Source: Ignavibacteria bacterium
GTDB lineage: Bacteria > Bacteroidota > Ignavibacteria > Kapaibacteriales > UBA4661
Direction of reading: 5' to 3'
NCBI GenBank assembly: GCA_013298775.1
Contig: JAAFIV010000028.1
Span: 1 to 63,471 of the forward strand
Length of the DNA stretch: 63,471 nucleotides
Shown: positions 8,306 to 43,326 of the stretch, piece by piece
How the letters are laid out: every line of letters begins with the position of its first letter
Numbering within the stretch: position 1 is the first letter of the stretch
The notes under the pieces: generated by a model
What the model saw: only the letters and a program-made list of their open reading frames with translations
The model's database searches: none
Told to the model about the DNA's origin: nothing
Made by a program: the position numbers and the translations under genes

Positions 8306-8408
8306 CCCTCGCCCCAACCCCTCTCCCAGATGTAGAGGGGCAAGATGTAGAGCCAGTTTCTTACCCTCGCCCTCTGGGAGAGGGTCGCTCGCAGAGCGGG
8401 GTGAGGGC
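8306..8408. repeat. Dispersed repeat C, copy 1 (CCCTCTCCCAGAGGG type)
   Basis: Begins CCCTCGCCCCAACCCCTCTC and ends with GAGCGGGGTGAGGG, with an inner CCCTCTGGGAGAGGG palindrome. It is homologous, with the same internal order, to the copy at 45402-45500. It belongs by appearance to a very widespread class of bacterial intergenic inverted repeats. The rest of the 8217-8674 gap holds only the doubtful ORF at 8409-8603. Confidence 0.8.
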
Positions 8409-9904: not shown

Positions 9905-10381
9905 ATGAGCGCACAACCCATATACTTGACCAAAGAGCGTCTAAATGAACTCGAAGCAGACCTGACCGAAATGACCACCAAAGGTCGTGCGGAAATTGCC
10001 CGCAAAATCGCCGAAGCACGCTCGCACGGCGACTTAAAAGAAAATGGCGATTACGATGCGGCAAAGGAAGAGCAAGGCTTGTTGGAGTTGAGAATCAACA
10101 AAATCCAAGCAACTCTTTCGCGCGCGCGCACCGTCGAGGCGGGGGATTATCCAAACGACAAAGTGTATATTCTCTCCAAAGTCAAACTCAAAAATAGAAA
10201 GACCAATAAGACGCTTGAATACTTGCTTGTGAGCGAGGAAGAGGCTGATTTTGAAAAAAATAAATTAGCAATAAACTCCCCCGTCGGACGCGCACTGTTG
10301 GGTAAAAGTATTGGCGAAGTGGCGCAAGTAAAAGTCCCCGCAGGAATGACGGAGTACGAGATTCTAGCTATTTCGCGGTAA
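9905..10381 (+). CDS. greA: Transcription elongation factor GreA
   Basis: A 158-residue Gre factor, which rescues backtracked RNA polymerase by stimulating transcript cleavage in the secondary channel. The N-terminal coiled coil (about 8-76) carries the acidic tip in HGDLKENGDYDAAKEEQ (about 41-57), where D43 and E46 would hold the catalytic metal. The C-terminal FKBP-like domain ends with INSPVGRALLGKSIGE and a V-P-x-G motif. Length is normal for GreA. The start is an ATG after an AT-rich leader without a Shine-Dalgarno sequence. Confidence 0.95.
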   Translation: MSAQPIYLTKERLNELEADLTEMTTKGRAEIARKIAEARSHGDLKENGDYDAAKEEQGLLELRINKIQATLSRARTVEAGDYPNDKVYILSKVKLKNRKTNKTLEYLLVSEEEADFEKNKLAINSPVGRALLGKSIGEVAQVKVPAGMTEYEILAISR

Positions 10382-10402
10382 GATGCACGAAAATTTCGAG
10401 CG

Positions 10403-10433
10403 TGTGAGGGTCTCGCTTCCTGTGAGGCTCTCG
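10403..10433. repeat. Dispersed hairpin B, copy 1
   Basis: GTGAGGGTCTCGC followed by TTCC and GTGAGGCTCTCGC. It is an imperfect palindrome shared with 25890-25921, 31290-31440 and 47234-47272. It sits between greA and the TraB/GumN gene. Confidence 0.8.
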
Positions 10434-10434
10434 C

Positions 10435-11499
10435 ATGCAGAAGAAGTGTCATACTTCAATTCTCACCCCGTCGCAGTTTCCTCACGAGCTTCCTTCCGCG
10501 CCTCCTTTCGGTAATCCTCAATTCTTGATAACTTCCTTGATAACTATGGTATTTTCTGCGTTGGTATCATTTTGTTCCGTGCTTGTTGTGTGCGCAATGT
10601 CTCTTGCTTTTTCCCCTTTTTCCATTGCACAAAACACCGATACAACACGAATAGACGCGCTTTTGTGGCAAATCTCTGGCAACGGTCTCGCCAAACCTTC
10701 GTATGTTTTTGGAACAATTCATCTTATTTGCAAGTCTGATGTCGTGATGCCGCGAGCAACGAAGCGGTGTTTAGCCTCAGCAAAGCAACTTGCTTTAGAA
10801 TTCGACCTTTCCAAAGCCGATGAAAGTGCGATGATGAATGCCCTTGATGCGGGAATACTCATGCGCGACGGCGCGACGCTCCGCCAGTTCTTGGATTCAA
10901 ACCAATATGCCCTTATTGACCGCTATTTCCGCGATTCCGTTGGTATGAGTCTTCCACTCATGGAACGCTTCAAACCAATGGCAATTTCCATGATGATAAT
11001 GCAAGCAAGCAATGACGGGGCTTGCGAGGAAACCTCCTACGAAGAAGAATTTATGCGTATTGCAAAACGGAAGCGCATTCCTGTTGTCGGCGTAGAAACA
11101 ATGCAAAAACAGCTTGAGTTATTCGACCGAATTCCGTACAAAGACCAAGCAATGATGCTCTTCAATGAAATACAATCCGCATACACTCCAGTTTCTGAGA
11201 GCAAACCATCGGCACTCGACCTTCGCTTTGTTACACAGCTTTACAAACAAGGAAAAATCAGCGAACTTCTTCAGGCAATGCGCGATGAAACCTTGCTTTC
11301 AACCCCAAACGGCATGAGCAATACAATGTTTGAAGAAATCATGCTCAATGAACGCAATCGTGCATGGATTCCCGTGATGGAAGGCATGATGCGCTCAAAA
11401 GTAACATTCTTTGCCGTTGGAGCAGCGCATTTAGCGGGCGAGCAAGGAGTGGTGCATCTCCTTCGCAAGCGAGGTTTTACGCTCTCTCCAATGAAATAG
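10435..11499 (+). CDS. TraB/GumN family protein
   Basis: A 354-residue exported protein of the TraB/GumN superfamily (Tiki-like metalloprotease fold; function in bacteria mostly unknown). The N-terminal landmark is LLWQISGNGLAKPSYVFGTIHL (given as positions about 80-101), with the conserved GTIH. A second landmark near the end is FAVGAAHLAGEQGVVHLLRKRG (about 325-346), with the conserved GAxHL. A signal peptide ends near SIAQ (about residue 67 from this start). The ATG at 10546 is an alternative start that would put the hydrophobic segment at the N terminus; the first 37 codons lie next to repeat B and may be untranslated. Confidence 0.85.
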   Translation: MQKKCHTSILTPSQFPHELPSAPPFGNPQFLITSLITMVFSALVSFCSVLVVCAMSLAFSPFSIAQNTDTTRIDALLWQISGNGLAKPSYVFGTIHLICKSDVVMPRATKRCLASAKQLALEFDLSKADESAMMNALDAGILMRDGATLRQFLDSNQYALIDRYFRDSVGMSLPLMERFKPMAISMMIMQASNDGACEETSYEEEFMRIAKRKRIPVVGVETMQKQLELFDRIPYKDQAMMLFNEIQSAYTPVSESKPSALDLRFVTQLYKQGKISELLQAMRDETLLSTPNGMSNTMFEEIMLNERNRAWIPVMEGMMRSKVTFFAVGAAHLAGEQGVVHLLRKRGFTLSPMK

Positions 11500-11548
11500 C
11501 TTCTTCCTTGCAGACTTCCACCCTGAGGAATATTTCTTGTGATTTCTT

Positions 11549-11579
11549 TTGCGCAAAAGCAGAAACTTCCCTAGATTTG
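11549..11579 (+). promoter_or_regulatory. Bacteroidota-type promoter
   Basis: TTG at 11549-11551, 20 bp spacer, TAGATTTG at 11572-11579, an exact match to TTG-N19/20-TAnnTTTG. The next gene downstream is ompA at 12072, with two mobile-type repeats in between. Otherwise the 11500-12071 gap holds no gene. Confidence 0.5.
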
Positions 11580-11699
11580 TGGCGTTCTCTGAATGAAATA
11601 CGTGGAGGCAATCAAGGATTGATGCCTTTTCCCTCACAGAATCCTTCAGAGAGAACGTATTGAAGCCATTTCTCGCAGTTCATGGCTTTAAGCAGTGTA

Positions 11700-11819
11700 G
11701 GAGTTTCGCAAATGGCGCAGACAGGAGTGTCTGCGTGACCACGTGATGCAGGTTTTACGAGCCTTCGGTAGCACAGACACTCTTGTCTGTACCACAAAGC
11801 AAGCATTTTGTGAAAGTTC
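11700..11819. mobile_element. MITE-like element A, copy 1 (TA-flanked)
   Basis: About 120 bp with related inverted ends (GGAGTTTCGCAAATG on the left; the right end reads GAACTTTCACAAAATG on the other strand). Two inner palindromes have the form GC(A/G)CAGACA-N-TGTCTG(C/T). A TA dinucleotide flanks each side (11698-11699 and 11820-11821). It is roughly 80% identical by eye to the copy at 29215-29333. Short reading frames in it are by-products of the palindromes and are not called as genes. Confidence 0.75.
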
Positions 11820-11863
11820 TACAATGCTATAATGATTGCTCATCATCTTTTAGCTCATTATCT

Positions 11864-12009
11864 GTAACTGGTCAGGTACTATCTCGTCGGGCGGCTGTTA
11901 TCACAAGTGCAATAGCCGTCCGGCGAGTGGTGTGCGAGCGACGCACCCGCCGTAAGGCAGCGTTTACGCACTCTTCAGCCGCCCGACGGGGATATACCTG
12001 ACTAGTTAC
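11864..12009. mobile_element. MITE with terminal inverted repeats and 8-bp target duplication (element D)
   Basis: The 146-bp element starts GTAACTGGTCAGGTA and ends with the inverted form (one mismatch in 15). The inverted repeat continues inward to 34 bp with 28 matches, including 13 perfect pairs CGTCGGGCGGCTG/CAGCCGCCCGACG (11885-11897 and 11976-11988). It is flanked at once on both sides by CATTATCT (11856-11863 and 12010-12017), a target-site duplication. There is no coding capacity. GTAA termini with an 8-bp duplication are features I know from IS66-family elements, so a full-length IS66-like partner may supply transposase. Confidence 0.85.
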
Positions 12010-12071
12010 CATTATCTTAATTTGCTCATAATCACTTTACTCATTTTTCTTGAACATTTTTCTGAAAAACT

Positions 12072-12740
12072 ATGGCTAGTTCTGAAAAAGCACCTAGTAT
12101 GCTCGTGCCACGTGTCATTTTCCCGCTCTTTATTGCGCTTGGCGTAAGTGCTGTCGCCTTTTTGGGCTTGCGCGATTGCGATTGCGACGTACCGCATACC
12201 GCTCATGCAGCAACGCCCAGCGAAGCAAAAACAGAGGAAGTGAAAGAATCTCCCTTTGGCGCAGCAGTAATGGCAAAACTTGGAAAATTCTTTTCGCGGA
12301 AACTCTCGACCGGCATTGAGCTGAACATCCCAGAAAATGGTATCGAAAACAAGCTCGTTACGTTCATTGAAGACAAAGAAAAAGCAGTTGATAAAACAAC
12401 ATGGTTTGATTTTGACCGCTTGCTTTTTGATACGGGTAAATCAACCCTCCAAGCCGCTTCGGAAGAGCAACTCAGCAATATTGCGGAAATTATGAAAGCA
12501 TACCCGCAAGTAGAATTGAAATTGGGTGGCTATACCGACAATCAAGGAAATGCAGCAACGAACAAAGCACTTTCTCAAAAACGCGCCGAAATGGTCATGG
12601 AAATGCTTGTCAAAAAGGGTATTGATGGAAAACGCCTTTCCGCAGAAGGTTTCGGACAAGAATTCCCTGTTGCAAGCAATGATACAGAAGAAGGTCGCCA
12701 ACAAAATCGCCGCGTTTCAGCGCGTGTAACGAAAAAGTAA
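12072..12740 (+). CDS. OmpA family protein
   Basis: A 222-residue envelope protein. An N-terminal hydrophobic segment (about 13-34) anchors or exports it. A linker follows, and then a C-terminal OmpA domain (about 108-222) with FDFDRLLFDTGKS at its start, GGYTDNQG near residue 155 and the NRRV motif at the end, which bind diaminopimelate in peptidoglycan. It therefore probably tethers the envelope to the cell wall. It starts at an ATG after an AT-rich leader, and the transcript ends at the terminator at 12810. Two repeat elements lie upstream between it and the nearest clear promoter. Confidence 0.9.
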   Translation: MASSEKAPSMLVPRVIFPLFIALGVSAVAFLGLRDCDCDVPHTAHAATPSEAKTEEVKESPFGAAVMAKLGKFFSRKLSTGIELNIPENGIENKLVTFIEDKEKAVDKTTWFDFDRLLFDTGKSTLQAASEEQLSNIAEIMKAYPQVELKLGGYTDNQGNAATNKALSQKRAEMVMEMLVKKGIDGKRLSAEGFGQEFPVASNDTEEGRQQNRRVSARVTKK

Positions 12741-12809
12741 GAACTTGATAGAAATTTTCCATTCTCATTGTCCATCCACATTGTGCATGACCATTGTGAA
12801 TGATAATGC

Positions 12810-12850
12810 AAAACCCACAGAATGAAGTTCATTTTGTGGGTTTTCTTCTT
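12810..12850 (+). terminator. Rho-independent terminator
   Basis: AAAACCCACA (12810-12819) pairs with TGTGGGTTTT (12835-12844), with inner GAATGA/TTCATT pairing. TTTTCTTCTT follows. It ends the ompA transcript. Confidence 0.85.
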
Positions 12851-12898
12851 CATCGCGTCCTTGTAAATTCCTTTTCTTGCTTCACTTATTTTTTGACC

Positions 12899-13516
12899 AT
12901 GAACAATACCACAACTCACCACACAAGCAGACGGGCAGCGCAATTCTTTTTCTCTTTTATTCTTGTTGTTTATACACTTTCTTTTTCTGCTTGTCAAAAA
13001 TCAGAACGAGAAGCAGCAAAAAGAAATGTAACGTTGCCTATTATCAAGGCTGCTCCTGCCTTTGCGGGACGCAGTGCAGAAAGCATAGTTGTAGAAAGCA
13101 AGAGTTTACAGGGGTCGGTCTGGATAGCATATTTTTTCTTTAGTTCATGCGGTGGTCCCTGTCCGACCTTGAACCAGCGTATTTCCGAGCTTCAAAGTGA
13201 AATCGGCAATGAAAAGCTCCAATTTGTTGGCTTTTCCGTAGATCCAGAAACGGACACGCCGAAAATACTTGCACAATATGGCAAACGCTATAATGCAAAT
13301 CCGAAACGATGGAAAATGCTCCAAATGTCGGAAGATTCCCTGAAAACGGTTGCCGTGCAAGGCTTTATGCTCGGCAGCCCCGAAGAGCCTTCCTTACACA
13401 GCACGCGTTTCGCATTAGTGGATAAGGCGGGTCAGATACGCGGTTTCTACGATGGTATGGACGACGAAGCATTAAAAAAGCTCCGCTTAGGAATTGCGGA
13501 GTTGTTAGCAGAATAA
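12899..13516 (+). CDS. SCO1/SenC family lipoprotein
   Basis: A 205-residue thioredoxin-fold protein of the SCO1/SenC/PrrC family, which delivers copper to, or reduces, the CuA site of cytochrome oxidase in the periplasm. A lipobox LSFSAC gives a lipidated Cys32. The copper ligands are C84 and C88 in SSCGGPC and H167 in SLHSTRF. The redox-sensor branch of the family has the same ligands. The ATG at 12899 is chosen because it gives a short basic N region before the signal; an earlier in-frame ATG at 12800 would run through the terminator hairpin. No oxidase genes are adjacent. Confidence 0.9.
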   Translation: MNNTTTHHTSRRAAQFFFSFILVVYTLSFSACQKSEREAAKRNVTLPIIKAAPAFAGRSAESIVVESKSLQGSVWIAYFFFSSCGGPCPTLNQRISELQSEIGNEKLQFVGFSVDPETDTPKILAQYGKRYNANPKRWKMLQMSEDSLKTVAVQGFMLGSPEEPSLHSTRFALVDKAGQIRGFYDGMDDEALKKLRLGIAELLAE

Positions 13517-13560
13517 TCAGTATTGAAATTAAACGAGACTATTTTCCAGAGAGGATTTGT

Positions 13561-14337
13561 ATGGATAGGCAAGACATGAACATACGAAGTATCGGCATTG
13601 TCGGTTTTGGTAGATTTGGTGCGCTTTTGGGACGTTCTTTACGCGAAGACTTTCAGGTACGCGCCTACGACTCCATGCTTACACCGGAACATATCACCTC
13701 AAAAGGCATAGAAGCCGCACCACTCCATGAAGTAGCTCAAACAGATTGCATTTTTATTTGCGTTCCGATTGTCAATTTTGAAACAACCGTCAAACGGCTA
13801 GAACCCTTGATTGTCTCTGGAACGGCAGTGCTTGATGTTTGTTCTGTCAAAAAAATGCCGTCCGATGTTATGTACGAGCATTTATCGAAAAAATCCGTCA
13901 TTTTACCGACGCACCCCATGTTCGGACCTGTTTCCGCGCAATTTGGTTGGGATAATTTACCATTTGTTTTGTGTCCATCAGCAACACCAAGCCCAGAAGA
14001 ACAAGCATTGACGAGCTTTTGGAGTAATTACATCCAGCAACGCCAACGCGCTCGTGTCGTGATAATGACACCAGAAGAGCATGACCGCATAACGGCATAT
14101 AACCTTTGCCTTACGCAACTCTTGGGTCGTGTGCTAGGAAATATCGGTATAAAAAGCTCGCCAATTGATGCACAGAGTTTTAAGTATTTAATGCAAATGA
14201 AGGAAATTTCGTATAGCGACTCAATGGAATTGTTGATTGGCATGCACCGATACAATCCATTTGCAGCAGAGATGCGTACTCATCTTCGAGAGGAATTTGA
14301 GGCAGTGGAAGAACTGCTTTCAAAAAAAACTGACTAA
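13561..14337 (+). CDS. Prephenate dehydrogenase family protein
   Basis: A 258-residue TyrA-type dehydrogenase, which oxidatively decarboxylates prephenate (or arogenate) in tyrosine synthesis. It has an N-terminal Rossmann motif GIVGFGRFGALLG (about 12-24), a conserved DVCSVK segment (about 92-97) and the active-site THPMFGP (about 117-123). The C-terminal helical domain is present in full. A GAGAGG stretch sits upstream of the ATG, one of few Shine-Dalgarno-like sites in this window. The other window genes of aromatic synthesis, aroK and trpE, are far away, so the pathway is scattered. Confidence 0.88.
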   Translation: MDRQDMNIRSIGIVGFGRFGALLGRSLREDFQVRAYDSMLTPEHITSKGIEAAPLHEVAQTDCIFICVPIVNFETTVKRLEPLIVSGTAVLDVCSVKKMPSDVMYEHLSKKSVILPTHPMFGPVSAQFGWDNLPFVLCPSATPSPEEQALTSFWSNYIQQRQRARVVIMTPEEHDRITAYNLCLTQLLGRVLGNIGIKSSPIDAQSFKYLMQMKEISYSDSMELLIGMHRYNPFAAEMRTHLREEFEAVEELLSKKTD

Positions 14338-14409
14338 CCGTGAAATTGATTTATTAGTGTTAATTATACACTATTTATGCCCTCAAAAAATTACTTATAG
14401 CCAAATATT

Positions 14410-16866
14410 TTGACCAATTCCCACCGCACATATCATCTCTTTTTTCATTCCCACCGCGCTTTTCTTTGGCGAATGCTTGTTGCGTGGGGCTTGAGTGGTA
14501 TTTTCTTTGTGGGAATGGCAGAAAGGCTCGCAGGGCAAGATTCAACAAAGCAGGACTTGACAAAGCAGGACTTGGCAAAGCAAGCTGCACCAACGACTCT
14601 CATGCCACGACTTGGGGCATGGGTAAATGTGACGCTTTCTCGACATGCAGTAGATTTTTCAGAATTCCGCACCACGCCTCTATTTTCTCCTCGCAACACA
14701 CAGTTTCCTGGTCCAACAAATCTTCGTTTTCTCTCTGGAAATGCTCTTAGTGCTGGCGGTGTTTTTGAACTTCCTTTTTCAACGCAGTTTGGTCTTTCAG
14801 TACGCCTGTCTTACACGCAGCATCACGCCTTGCTTCAAACAGAAGAAGCGGTTCTACTCGGCGATGTGAACGGAACAAGTTCGGAAAACATCATTGAACA
14901 TCGCATCAATGCTCGCCTTGCAACGCTTGGTACGGAAATATATGGCTATGCTGCTCCATTCAGTAATGGCTTCCGCATCATTGGCGGGATTGCGGCTGGA
15001 TATATTCTTTCGCGTGCTTACTCGCAAGGAGAAGCCTTTCAGCAACCTACACGTGGCGGTTTTACTCCAAACGGCGACCAGACGTTCAATGCTCAAACGG
15101 GAGAAATTCCCGATGTACAGCCAGTTCAGCTTTGGCTCACAGGTGGTGTATCATACACACTATCATTTCCCTTTGGAGCAACAACACTAGAAATTACGCC
15201 CGAACTTGCCTATTCCCATGCCCTTTCAAGCATACTTCAATCATCATCTGTACCAAGTGGAACTTCCTTATGGAATGCGCATTATTTTCGCGGTGGTGTT
15301 AAAATTACACTTCCAATTTTCTCAGAGCAACAAGCTCAAAAGCCAGATACAGTTCGCCAGAACTTGCTCACGAAAGATTCTCTTGCACGCTTGGCACGGG
15401 AACAAGATTCAATAAACACAGCACGTTTGATTGATTCAACACGAAGAACCTCGACCGTTCTCACGGCTCCCTTTAGAACAAATGCTCCCAAAGTGAGTGT
15501 TTACGCCCAGCAAGCACTCACAAAAGCGCAAAACCTTGTGAATACTCGGCAAATAGACATGAAGCCCGTGAGTATTGTTCGCTTTGCCAAGCGCGTACAA
15601 GGGCGCGACGTGAGTGATGAAGAAGAGAATGAAAAACTGGTACTGCCCGTCCAAGAACTTCTCGTGCGTGATGAATTGCCGCTTTTACCCTTTGTTTTTT
15701 TCGATGGAGAAAGTAGTACCAAATTACCAGAACGCTACGCAGCACTTCCTCCAAACAGCGCAGCGTTGTTTTCACCTGACGCATTAAAAGCCTCATCGGT
15801 GCTGGCTTCGGGCAGGCACGCTTATTATCATTTGCTCAATATTCTTGGCTGGAGAATGCGCAAATTACCGAATGCGCGGCTGAATATTCTTGGTTGCACC
15901 GATGGTTTTACCAGCGAAAAAAATCGCCCTCGTTTAGGAGAAGTACGTGCAAATACCATTGCCGACTACCTCAAAAGTGTTTGGGAAATAGATTCTTCTC
16001 GCCTTTTTATCTCCGAGCTTCGTGGCAATACAGTGTCCCCAAGAGCCTCACGTCCACTGGCAGAAGCCGACAAACAAGCAGAAAATCGTAGGGTAGAGCT
16101 ATCATCCGATACCACCGCTCTTTTCGCACCGCTCTTACTTACTGATACTATTTCCCATGCGCTTACTCCAGTGATGCGATTTTACCTTATTGTCCCATCA
16201 ACACTACGAATAAAATCATGGAAAATCCGTATTCGTCAGGAACGGCAGACAATCAAGGAATTTAGAGGTAATGGAAAACCTCCTCTTGCCATTGACTGGC
16301 GTGTGGATGCGAAAGAAATGGAAAAAATGCGCGAAGGTAATCGTGAAAACAATCGTGAAAGTAATCGTGAAAATTCTTTAGCAAACACGAACGACATTGC
16401 CCCCCTAGAATGCAGCTTTGAAGTTCTGGAGCAAGACGGAGCAGGAATATCATCACCGGTTCAAAAGATTGTTGCAGAAGAGCGACGTTTCCGCGTGAAC
16501 GCAAACGAGCGTGTTGAAAATATGCTTGTTGAACGTCAAAGTTTGATTTTGTTTGACGGCGTTAAAAGCACACTAACCCAAACACATCTGGAAACACTCA
16601 AAGGTGTGAATGCTCGCATGACGGCTAGCTCAAGAGTGCTGTTTGAAGGTTTTATGGATAAGTCAGGAGACGAAGAGTTTAACGAGCGTCTTTCTTTAGC
16701 CCGTGCGCAGGCAGCAGCACAGGCTCTTCGCTTTAATGTTCGCGGTGCGCAAGTGGAGATTAAGGGGTATGGTGCAAACAAGGTATTATTTGATTCTCGA
16801 ATCCCCGAAGGTCGCATTTATTCTCGCACGGTGCGTATTACCCAAGAAACTCCCATACAAGAGTAA
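14410..16866 (+). CDS. Outer membrane protein with two OmpA-like C-terminal domains
   Basis: An 818-residue exported protein. A signal segment (about 20-42) is followed by a beta-barrel-like region (about 55-310), a charged linker, a first OmpA-type domain (about 435-575, with GCTDGFTSEKNRPR and a final ENRRVEL) and a second, weaker one (about 710-815, with LFEGFMDKSGDEEFNERLS). It probably links the outer membrane to peptidoglycan. The start is a TTG at 14410 (the first possible in the frame); an ATG at 14473 would lose the basic N region. Two in-frame micro-repeats are seen: 15 bp x 2.7 at 14545-14589 and 12 bp x 3 at 16339-16374. Confidence 0.75.
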   Translation: MTNSHRTYHLFFHSHRAFLWRMLVAWGLSGIFFVGMAERLAGQDSTKQDLTKQDLAKQAAPTTLMPRLGAWVNVTLSRHAVDFSEFRTTPLFSPRNTQFPGPTNLRFLSGNALSAGGVFELPFSTQFGLSVRLSYTQHHALLQTEEAVLLGDVNGTSSENIIEHRINARLATLGTEIYGYAAPFSNGFRIIGGIAAGYILSRAYSQGEAFQQPTRGGFTPNGDQTFNAQTGEIPDVQPVQLWLTGGVSYTLSFPFGATTLEITPELAYSHALSSILQSSSVPSGTSLWNAHYFRGGVKITLPIFSEQQAQKPDTVRQNLLTKDSLARLAREQDSINTARLIDSTRRTSTVLTAPFRTNAPKVSVYAQQALTKAQNLVNTRQIDMKPVSIVRFAKRVQGRDVSDEEENEKLVLPVQELLVRDELPLLPFVFFDGESSTKLPERYAALPPNSAALFSPDALKASSVLASGRHAYYHLLNILGWRMRKLPNARLNILGCTDGFTSEKNRPRLGEVRANTIADYLKSVWEIDSSRLFISELRGNTVSPRASRPLAEADKQAENRRVELSSDTTALFAPLLLTDTISHALTPVMRFYLIVPSTLRIKSWKIRIRQERQTIKEFRGNGKPPLAIDWRVDAKEMEKMREGNRENNRESNRENSLANTNDIAPLECSFEVLEQDGAGISSPVQKIVAEERRFRVNANERVENMLVERQSLILFDGVKSTLTQTHLETLKGVNARMTASSRVLFEGFMDKSGDEEFNERLSLARAQAAAQALRFNVRGAQVEIKGYGANKVLFDSRIPEGRIYSRTVRITQETPIQE

Positions 16867-29214: not shown

Positions 29215-29333
29215 GGAGCTTCGCAAAGGGCGCAGACAAGAGTGTCTGCGCTACCACGCGATGCGGATTTACGTATCTTCGGTAGCACAGACACTCCTGT
29301 CTGTGCCACAAAACGAGCATTTTGCTAAAGTCC
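29215..29333. mobile_element. MITE-like element A, copy 2 (TA-flanked)
   Basis: It has the same layout as the copy at 11700: left end GGAGCTTCGCAAAGG, inner palindromes GCGCAGACAAGAGTGTCTGCGC and (21 bp later) its CACAGACACTCCTGTCTGTG relative, right end on the other strand GGACTTTAGCAAAATGCTCG. TA flanks it at 29213-29214 and 29334-29335. It lies between aroK and the adhesin gene. Confidence 0.8.
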
Positions 29334-40206: not shown

Positions 40207-40309
40207 GGTGGTATGCAAAATGGTGGAAAATTTTGAAGAATAGTGCTGCAAGCAAAGGCTTTTCTATACTAAAAATGGGTAAAAATTGCATACGGTAAAC
40301 TCGCCCAAC

Positions 40310-40344
40310 GGCAGCGTTTCCGCACTCCTCAGCCGCCGGACGAG
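40310..40344. repeat. Fragment related to MITE D
   Basis: GGCAGCGTTTCCGCACTCCT and the following CAGCCGCCGGACGAG match, with few differences, the right half of the MITE at 11864-12009 (11957-11990). A weaker left arm starts at 40300. No target duplication is visible, so it is a decayed or deleted copy. Confidence 0.7.
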
Positions 40345-40407
40345 AAGAGCGTTTTACCCTTGTTGAGTATACATTTCAGATTTCATTCCTCAGATTTCAT
40401 CCTTCCC

Positions 40408-43111: not shown

Positions 43112-43326
43112 ATTGAAGTTTCGATAAAAGTGGTTCTTTGCGTTTTGGGAAAAATCTATGGTCGTGATATTTTCGCATACTGCAAAGCAGTAATAATGAA
43201 AAATGTGAGCAAAGAACGCAGATTCGACGACTCAAGAGGATGGTGTGGATGAAAAAAAATCCTCCAAATCCTAATAGTCTGGGCTTCATCAGCGTTCAAA
43301 ATAATCGTTGCCGAATATTAAGAATT

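Follow-up and report, generated by a model that had tools for sequence, protein, structure and literature searches.

MITEs with ends like those of an IS are already well known. One of them, MITEPsy1, is a transposase-less element whose ends match an IS and which was mobilised in vivo (PMC3189936); it is 100 nt long, with 18-nt repeats and a 4-nt duplication, and its family is given as "IS5?". Tn3-derived TIMEs have conserved ends with differing cores and are recognised by their ends irrespective of the core, and they have 38-bp Tn3-type ends, 5-bp duplications and resolvase or composite cores (PMC4133298). In the ISBst12 group of the IS66 family, ISDge4 has the ends GTAACTGCTCAGCA and GTGACTACTCAGCA, one ORF and an 8-bp direct repeat; its mode is called copy-and-paste, and the report states that active transposition of this group is reported there for the first time (PMC12898284). 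REP/BIME repeats of the GTAG and CGTC superfamilies are described as short hairpin repeats, often dimers, some of them with different loops (PMC3733652). The element analyzed here resembles MITEPsy1 in having no transposase and IS-like ends, and the TIMEs in combining conserved ends with differing cores, but its ends are 14-bp and of IS66 type, its duplications are 8 bp long and its cores are hairpins. Short hairpin repeats, often paired, are also what it has in common with REP/BIME repeats, whereas here transposon tips, flanked by target duplications, surround the hairpin pairs. No report of IS66-ended MITEs in this lineage, or of a hairpin module with two end types, was found in the open-licence literature.

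The element lies in a 63,471-nucleotide stretch of contig JAAFIV010000028.1 (the window) from an Ignavibacteria bacterium of the order Kapaibacteriales, the genome assembly of which (GCA_013298775.1) comprises 5.19 Mb in 95 contigs. It occupies positions 11864 to 12009 on the plus strand, has no coding capacity and belongs to F1, the largest of the interior clusters described below. The left terminal inverted repeat (TIR), GTAACTGGTCAGGTA (11864 to 11878, plus strand), is an IS66/ISBst12-type tip as judged from its letters, from tip counts in the genome and from comparison with the congener G001. The right TIR, GTAACTAGTCAGGTA (11995 to 12009, minus strand), is the complement of GTAACTGGTCAGGTA with one mismatch, and an inverted-repeat search extends the arms to 34 nt with 82% identity (28 of 34). 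The 8-bp target duplication CATTATCT stands at 11856 to 11863 on the left and at 12010 to 12017 on the right. The interior consists of hairpin A (CTCGTCGGGCGGCTG ... CCGTCCGGCGAG, 11883 to 11927, delimited by eye) in its left half and hairpin B (11944 to 11990, minus strand) in its right half. As RNA, the plus strand folds at -85 kcal/mol, compared with a shuffle mean of -49 (z = -9.3), and in this whole-element fold the long outer arms pair in place of hairpin A. The sequence-only reading had described a complete 146-bp MITE with 15-bp ends, one mismatch between them, 28/34 arms and CATTATCT on both sides, and letters and coordinates agree with this description. Its completeness as a MITE is borne out by the TIRs, a size below about 300 bp and dispersed multiple copies carrying target duplications. 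The TIR starts with GTAA and the duplication is 8 bp long, as in IS66/ISBst12 elements; neither a TnpC transposase of its own nor any other gene lies within the 146 bp, in agreement with the earlier reading, and the element is therefore classed as a derivative rather than as an IS66 element.

Other palindromic repeats occur in the window. A second repeat (TAGGA.TTTCGCAAA ..., with the inner palindrome GCACAGACACTC) at 11698 to 11825 ends 38 bp to the left of the MITE and has at least eight further copies in the genome, with identities of 87% to 91% among the best 38 candidates; its unit is visible in L286 to L288. Palindromes built on GGCACAGACA...TGTCTGTGCC are located at 29229 to 29307, 49020 to 49108 and 52098 to 52219, and the same repeat is nested, by eye, in two tip-capped elements (L132 and L159). 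CCCTCTCCC...GGGAGAGGG palindromes stand at 8319 to 8384 and 45413 to 45478, and this repeat is also found within an F1-like element (L043).

The search of the genome and its relatives that had been proposed on the basis of the sequence revealed a large family. With the 146 bp as the query, many matches were found in the element's own genome, with identities of up to 97% among the best 40 of 226 candidates. The tip GTAACTGGTCAGGTA occurs there 211 times with two or fewer mismatches, versus 10 times for the reversed pattern, and the exact 14-mer 108 times, versus once for its control; the abundance of the element is far beyond chance. Among 40 other genomes searched, the exact 14-mer is present in 5 (G002, 62; G005, 54; G004, 7; G007, 4; G009, 2) and absent from the remaining 35. 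G002 corresponds to JAAFHM (Ignavibacteria bacterium bin51) and G005 to RDXM (Candidatus Kapaibacterium sp. PH2015_12D_48_15), both belonging to the same genus as the window. In a genome collection from which the own genome is perhaps excluded, an exact tip pair spaced by 114 to 144 bases was found in nine stretches of two assemblies, both of this genus. No match to plasmid records was obtained by megablast with window positions 10000 to 14500, and viral contigs contained no exact tip pair with 100 to 130 bases between. When 20 stretches with seemingly unpaired tips, and then more, were opened, most proved to have a partner about 80 to 190 bp away; several single tips reach a contig end (e.g., L068, L142 and L144), and those in L075, L076, L077, L145, L161 and L163 were left without a partner. 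A tip-capped element apparently stands at the same site in G004 (L058 and L285) and G002 (L061), where the flanking bases agree by eye, so that this insertion would predate the split of the two species.

In total, 114 distinct elements with a tip (three or fewer mismatches) at each end were gathered, 76 from the own genome and 38 from five relatives, after one double pairing had been removed and identical sequences merged; a few pairings are doubtful, among them F14, which lacks a duplication, and one of 311 bp in L100. The 8-bp duplication seen at the window element extends to the family, being perfect in 67 of the 112 elements with both flanks readable. Seven or eight positions agree in 86 of these 112, and such agreement is missing in the other 26. 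The 67 identical 8-mers display a symmetric A+T-rich preference, position 2 favouring A and position 7 favouring T. Of 70 own-genome insertions with sufficiently long flanks, 23 have their insertion point in a stretch of 150 or more codons without a stop, compared with 229 of 267 random flank points, which indicates that insertions mostly avoid genes.

The window site is unoccupied in the sister species G005, the one relative whose match spans both sides of the site: both sides match with 82% to 86% identity and no tip is present, yet the two do not form a clean before-and-after pair. Homology restarts a few bases to the right of the duplication, the left intergenic DNA is different and CATTATCT is not present at the orthologous site of G005; this divergence is the reason why the locus did not yield the empty site with one clean CATTATCT that the sequence-only reading had called for. 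Two-sided empty sites exist for other copies. A family-wide search with the joined flanks of 12 other insertions, 9 of them in the own genome and 3 in G005, gave at least six places, six of which were aligned and checked flank by flank. None of the six aligned sister places contains a tip with three or fewer mismatches, and three are two-sided empty sites, namely, that of the own-genome element L006 in G005 and those of the G005 elements L130 and L140 in the own genome. In these three, flank identity is 75% to 88% and 43 or fewer bases lie between the flank matches; the L006 site retains seven of the eight bases of a single target. The alignments of L019, L022 and L025 are good on one side only and display no junction, and these were not counted. 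The insertion in the window had been called fairly recent; its absence from G005 agrees with this, but the nearest own-genome copies already differ by 3%, and recency holds in a relative sense only.

The identity of the ends was approached through transposase genes. The own genome contains no match to PF03050 (IS66 transposase), and the mobilising enzyme is therefore inferred from relatives. The transposase family searches of the own genome covered PF03050 and PF01609; the latter matches at three places, none with a tip at three or fewer mismatches, and no transposase was recognised by eye in the reading frames of L128, L133 and L145. IS66 genes were matched in 6 of 41 genomes of the order, with long open frames only outside the genus, and among the 13 IS66 loci of the order a tip with one mismatch occurs at a single place, in the congener G001. 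There, the stop codon of a broken IS66 gene (PF03050, E = 5.6e-11; a 90-aa fragment below the NCBIfam cut-off) touches GTAACTAGTCAGGT, in the position and orientation expected of an element end. GTAACTAGTCAGGT differs from the consensus tip by one mismatch (13/14 bases) and agrees at every position with bases 1 to 14 of the right tip of the window element; only one end of the G001 element is visible, because the gene is broken and cut by the contig end. Contigs of the window species, G001 and G007 frequently end within repeats. A second congener, G007, has an IS66 gene that terminates at the tip GTACCTGGGTCAGGTGTGTT. In G134, which belongs to the same phylum, a 1,630-bp element with a single IS66 gene of 474 codons has the ends GTAACTATTCAGGT and GTAACTATTCAGGC in inverted order, and in G072 an IS66 gene lies between GTAACTGGTTAGCC ends. 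In each case the gene extends into the right tip and scores above the NCBIfam IS66 cut-off, and the tips at both ends are related, not identical, to that in the window. The flanks of the G134 element agree at four of eight positions, without an 8-bp duplication; at G072 the duplication is unreadable because the left end coincides with the start of the locus. Across the IS66 loci, the tip with three or fewer mismatches is no commoner than in controls (17 versus 16 and 16), while with two or fewer mismatches it gives six rows at four places versus 0 and 0; the G007 place among these four is a tip beside an IS256-type gene.

ISDge4 provides the described counterpart: its tip GTAACTGCTCAGCA (PMC12898284) agrees with the window tip at 11 of 14 positions and the direct repeat is likewise 8 bp long. 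The relatives' elements also carry a single transposase gene, as in the ISBst12 group, whereas the window element has no gene and no gene copy was found in its own assembly. Weighed against the contrary points above, the tips on relatives' IS66 genes and those of ISDge4 lead us to take the ends as very probably those of ISBst12-group IS66 elements. The suggestion that the element is a non-autonomous IS66 derivative thus gains support from IS66 genes of relatives that extend into a tip of this kind and from ISDge4. An IS66-like element sharing the ends, which the sequence-only reading had proposed to look for, was recovered in part: one end in G001 with 13 of 14 bases and related tips in G134 and G072, but none in the own genome.

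The ends might instead derive from another DDE transposase making 8- to 9-bp duplications, most plausibly IS256 (Mutator-type), which we consider improbable. This explanation draws on G007, where some 90 bp separate the tip GTACCTGGTCAGGT from a PF00872 (Transposase_mut) gene, and on the fact that the own-genome searches were confined to the two Pfam families named above. However, the PF00872 gene is flanked on both sides by an inverted repeat of its own, starting GAGATTGTCC (by eye) and located inside the tip; its far side bears no tip, and the tip at which the G007 IS66 gene terminates is very similar. For this single case (contig C98 of G007), the GAGATTGTCC repeats led to rejection of IS256 as the source of the ends, and the IS256-type gene is best read as a probable insertion into an IS66-type remnant. 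At this locus (L345), the IS256-type gene with its GAGATTGTCC repeats begins 19 bp inside the IS66-like tip, and the bases past its other side look transposase-like by eye.

The IS66-type tips enclose a variety of interiors. These were grouped by a 50% coverage rule, as single linkage had joined unrelated types via nested repeats, and the 114 elements fell into 14 clusters (F1, 56; F2, 18; F3, 12; F4, 10; F5, 5; F6, 4; F7, 2; and seven singletons). F1, which includes the window element, is over-represented because many loci were found using an F1 sequence. The singletons F8, F11, F12 and F13 look, by eye, like pieces of F1, F2 or F3 or like versions of these with nested inserts, leaving ten interior types, nine of them in the own genome, from which F4 is missing. 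Since F7 and F9 are partly alike, F1 and F3 have hairpin B in common and some merging was by eye, "about nine" interiors in the own genome is a judgement. The same ends therefore cap interiors with little or nothing else in common. Folded with their tips removed (up to eight members per type, three types having one member), the interiors form much more stable folds than dinucleotide shuffles in nine of the ten types, with median z values from -5.4 to -9.7; the AT-rich F4 interior hardly folds (z = -2.0). Comparison of the 14 clusters, each represented by one member, with nine IS66 loci gave no match at E < 0.01, and several of the best matches were the tip itself. F4, with its 202-bp interior, is a candidate internal-deletion remnant of an autonomous element, but it has no internal match to the nine loci at this threshold. 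At contig ends of G001 (e.g., L213 to L223), many matches to the F4 element were observed, with the tip GTAACTGTTTAGGT where it could be read, which suggests that it multiplied to high copy number in a burst, with an altered tip.

By eye, F1 has similar bases between tip and hairpin on its two sides and F2 and F6 do not, so that one copying event across the hairpin does not explain all types. A tipless hairpin copy resembling F5 (84% over about 115 bp) is present in L163; tipless copies of F2, F6 and F7 were not seen among the loci examined, most of which had been fetched by their tips. In the window, a hairpin like the F9 interior (90% over 50 bp) stands at 43248 to 43297 with no tip within 330 bp.

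Hairpin B also occurs under a second type of end. When relatives were searched with the right half of the window element, some of the matching hairpins had no IS66-type tips, and several of these stood between TATACTGA...TCAGTATA-like ends. One such 107-bp element (L276, positions 274 to 380) was used to search ten genomes of the family; among at most the best 40 candidates for each, it is matched at 106 or more of 107 positions in at least seven places of G004 (including the source of the query), at least six of G002, at least one of G007 and at least one of the own genome. The own-genome match lies in the window at 40265 to 40371 (minus strand); it is a TATACTGA-type element of full length that carries this hairpin module and has 76% identity over positions 1 to 107 of the L276 element and the ends TATACT...AGTATA. 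Positions 28 to 74 of the L276 element are 85% identical to 11944 to 11990 of the MITE, so one hairpin module is found within two kinds of ends. A scan for TATACTGAGAA pairs with two mismatches in the fetched loci yielded 6, versus 2 for the reversed control; this count is weak by itself, and the evidence is therefore the search with the L276 element. Read from their ends, the TATACTGA-ended elements would make a 2-bp TA duplication, and a transposase of IS630/Tc1 type is predicted for them. It is an even call whether the small mobile elements of the genus are modular, that is, whether ends and hairpin interiors are inherited separately and hairpins spread by borrowing active ends and their transposase.

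Its position and fold could also mark the element as a functional regulatory RNA or terminator kept to control the neighbouring gene, which seems very unlikely. The fold energy and z value given above and the mostly intergenic location of the family copies are in keeping with such a role. The neighbour, which is not part of the element, begins with its start codon 62 bp to the right (12072 to 12740, plus strand). The sequence-only reading had called it ompA, but no more than OmpA-like can be said: 40 NCBIfam models match the gene, and the best 25 of the 40 are all below the curated cut-offs. Against regulation, the locus (L001) has no Rfam match up to E = 1, a consensus scan of 11500 to 12100, which may not suit this phylum, detected no terminator-like or sigma-70-like site, and the orthologous stretch of G005 has no tip although the OmpA-like gene is kept.

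REP/BIME palindromes are not known to make target duplications as they spread. A REP/BIME-like palindrome moved without a DDE transposase, next to incidental 8-bp repeats, would fit an interior of two hairpins of REP-like size and the occurrence of hairpin B without IS66-type tips in several relatives, but most copies are bordered by 8-bp duplications exactly at tips common to unrelated interiors, by which this least likely of the explanations is strongly disfavoured.

We therefore return to transposition by an IS66-type enzyme: the window element is very probably a MITE whose movement in trans depends on a transposase of the single-gene ISBst12 group. The transposase would bind the 14-bp tips and excise or copy the element, the choice between a cut-and-paste and a copy mode being conjectural. 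The element would then be joined to a target that is AT-rich, for the most part intergenic and cut with strand breaks 8 bp apart, and repair of the staggered cut would create the 8-bp duplication. A single-gene IS66 transposase may move in trans whatever stands between the tips, the window element carrying nothing else. The tips are apparently all that the enzyme requires, and for this reason hairpin repeats of unrelated sequence have probably come between them repeatedly, becoming cargo more than once; the present interior comprises two hairpins with related stems, one of which is also found in the TATACTGA-ended element. The search for an IS66 transposase gene in the own assembly was negative, which makes it probable that the family is now stranded.

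If so, this family would be an example from nature of a bacterial transposase for which about 14 bp of terminal sequence seem to suffice, the sequences enclosed being many and unrelated, and it would document MITEs for the little-studied ISBst12 group. It may also point to a route by which palindromic repeats without a known mobiliser spread, namely, by sitting between the ends of different transposons. If the modular reading is true, hairpin repeats in this genus would spread via whichever ends, and hence whichever transposase, is active.
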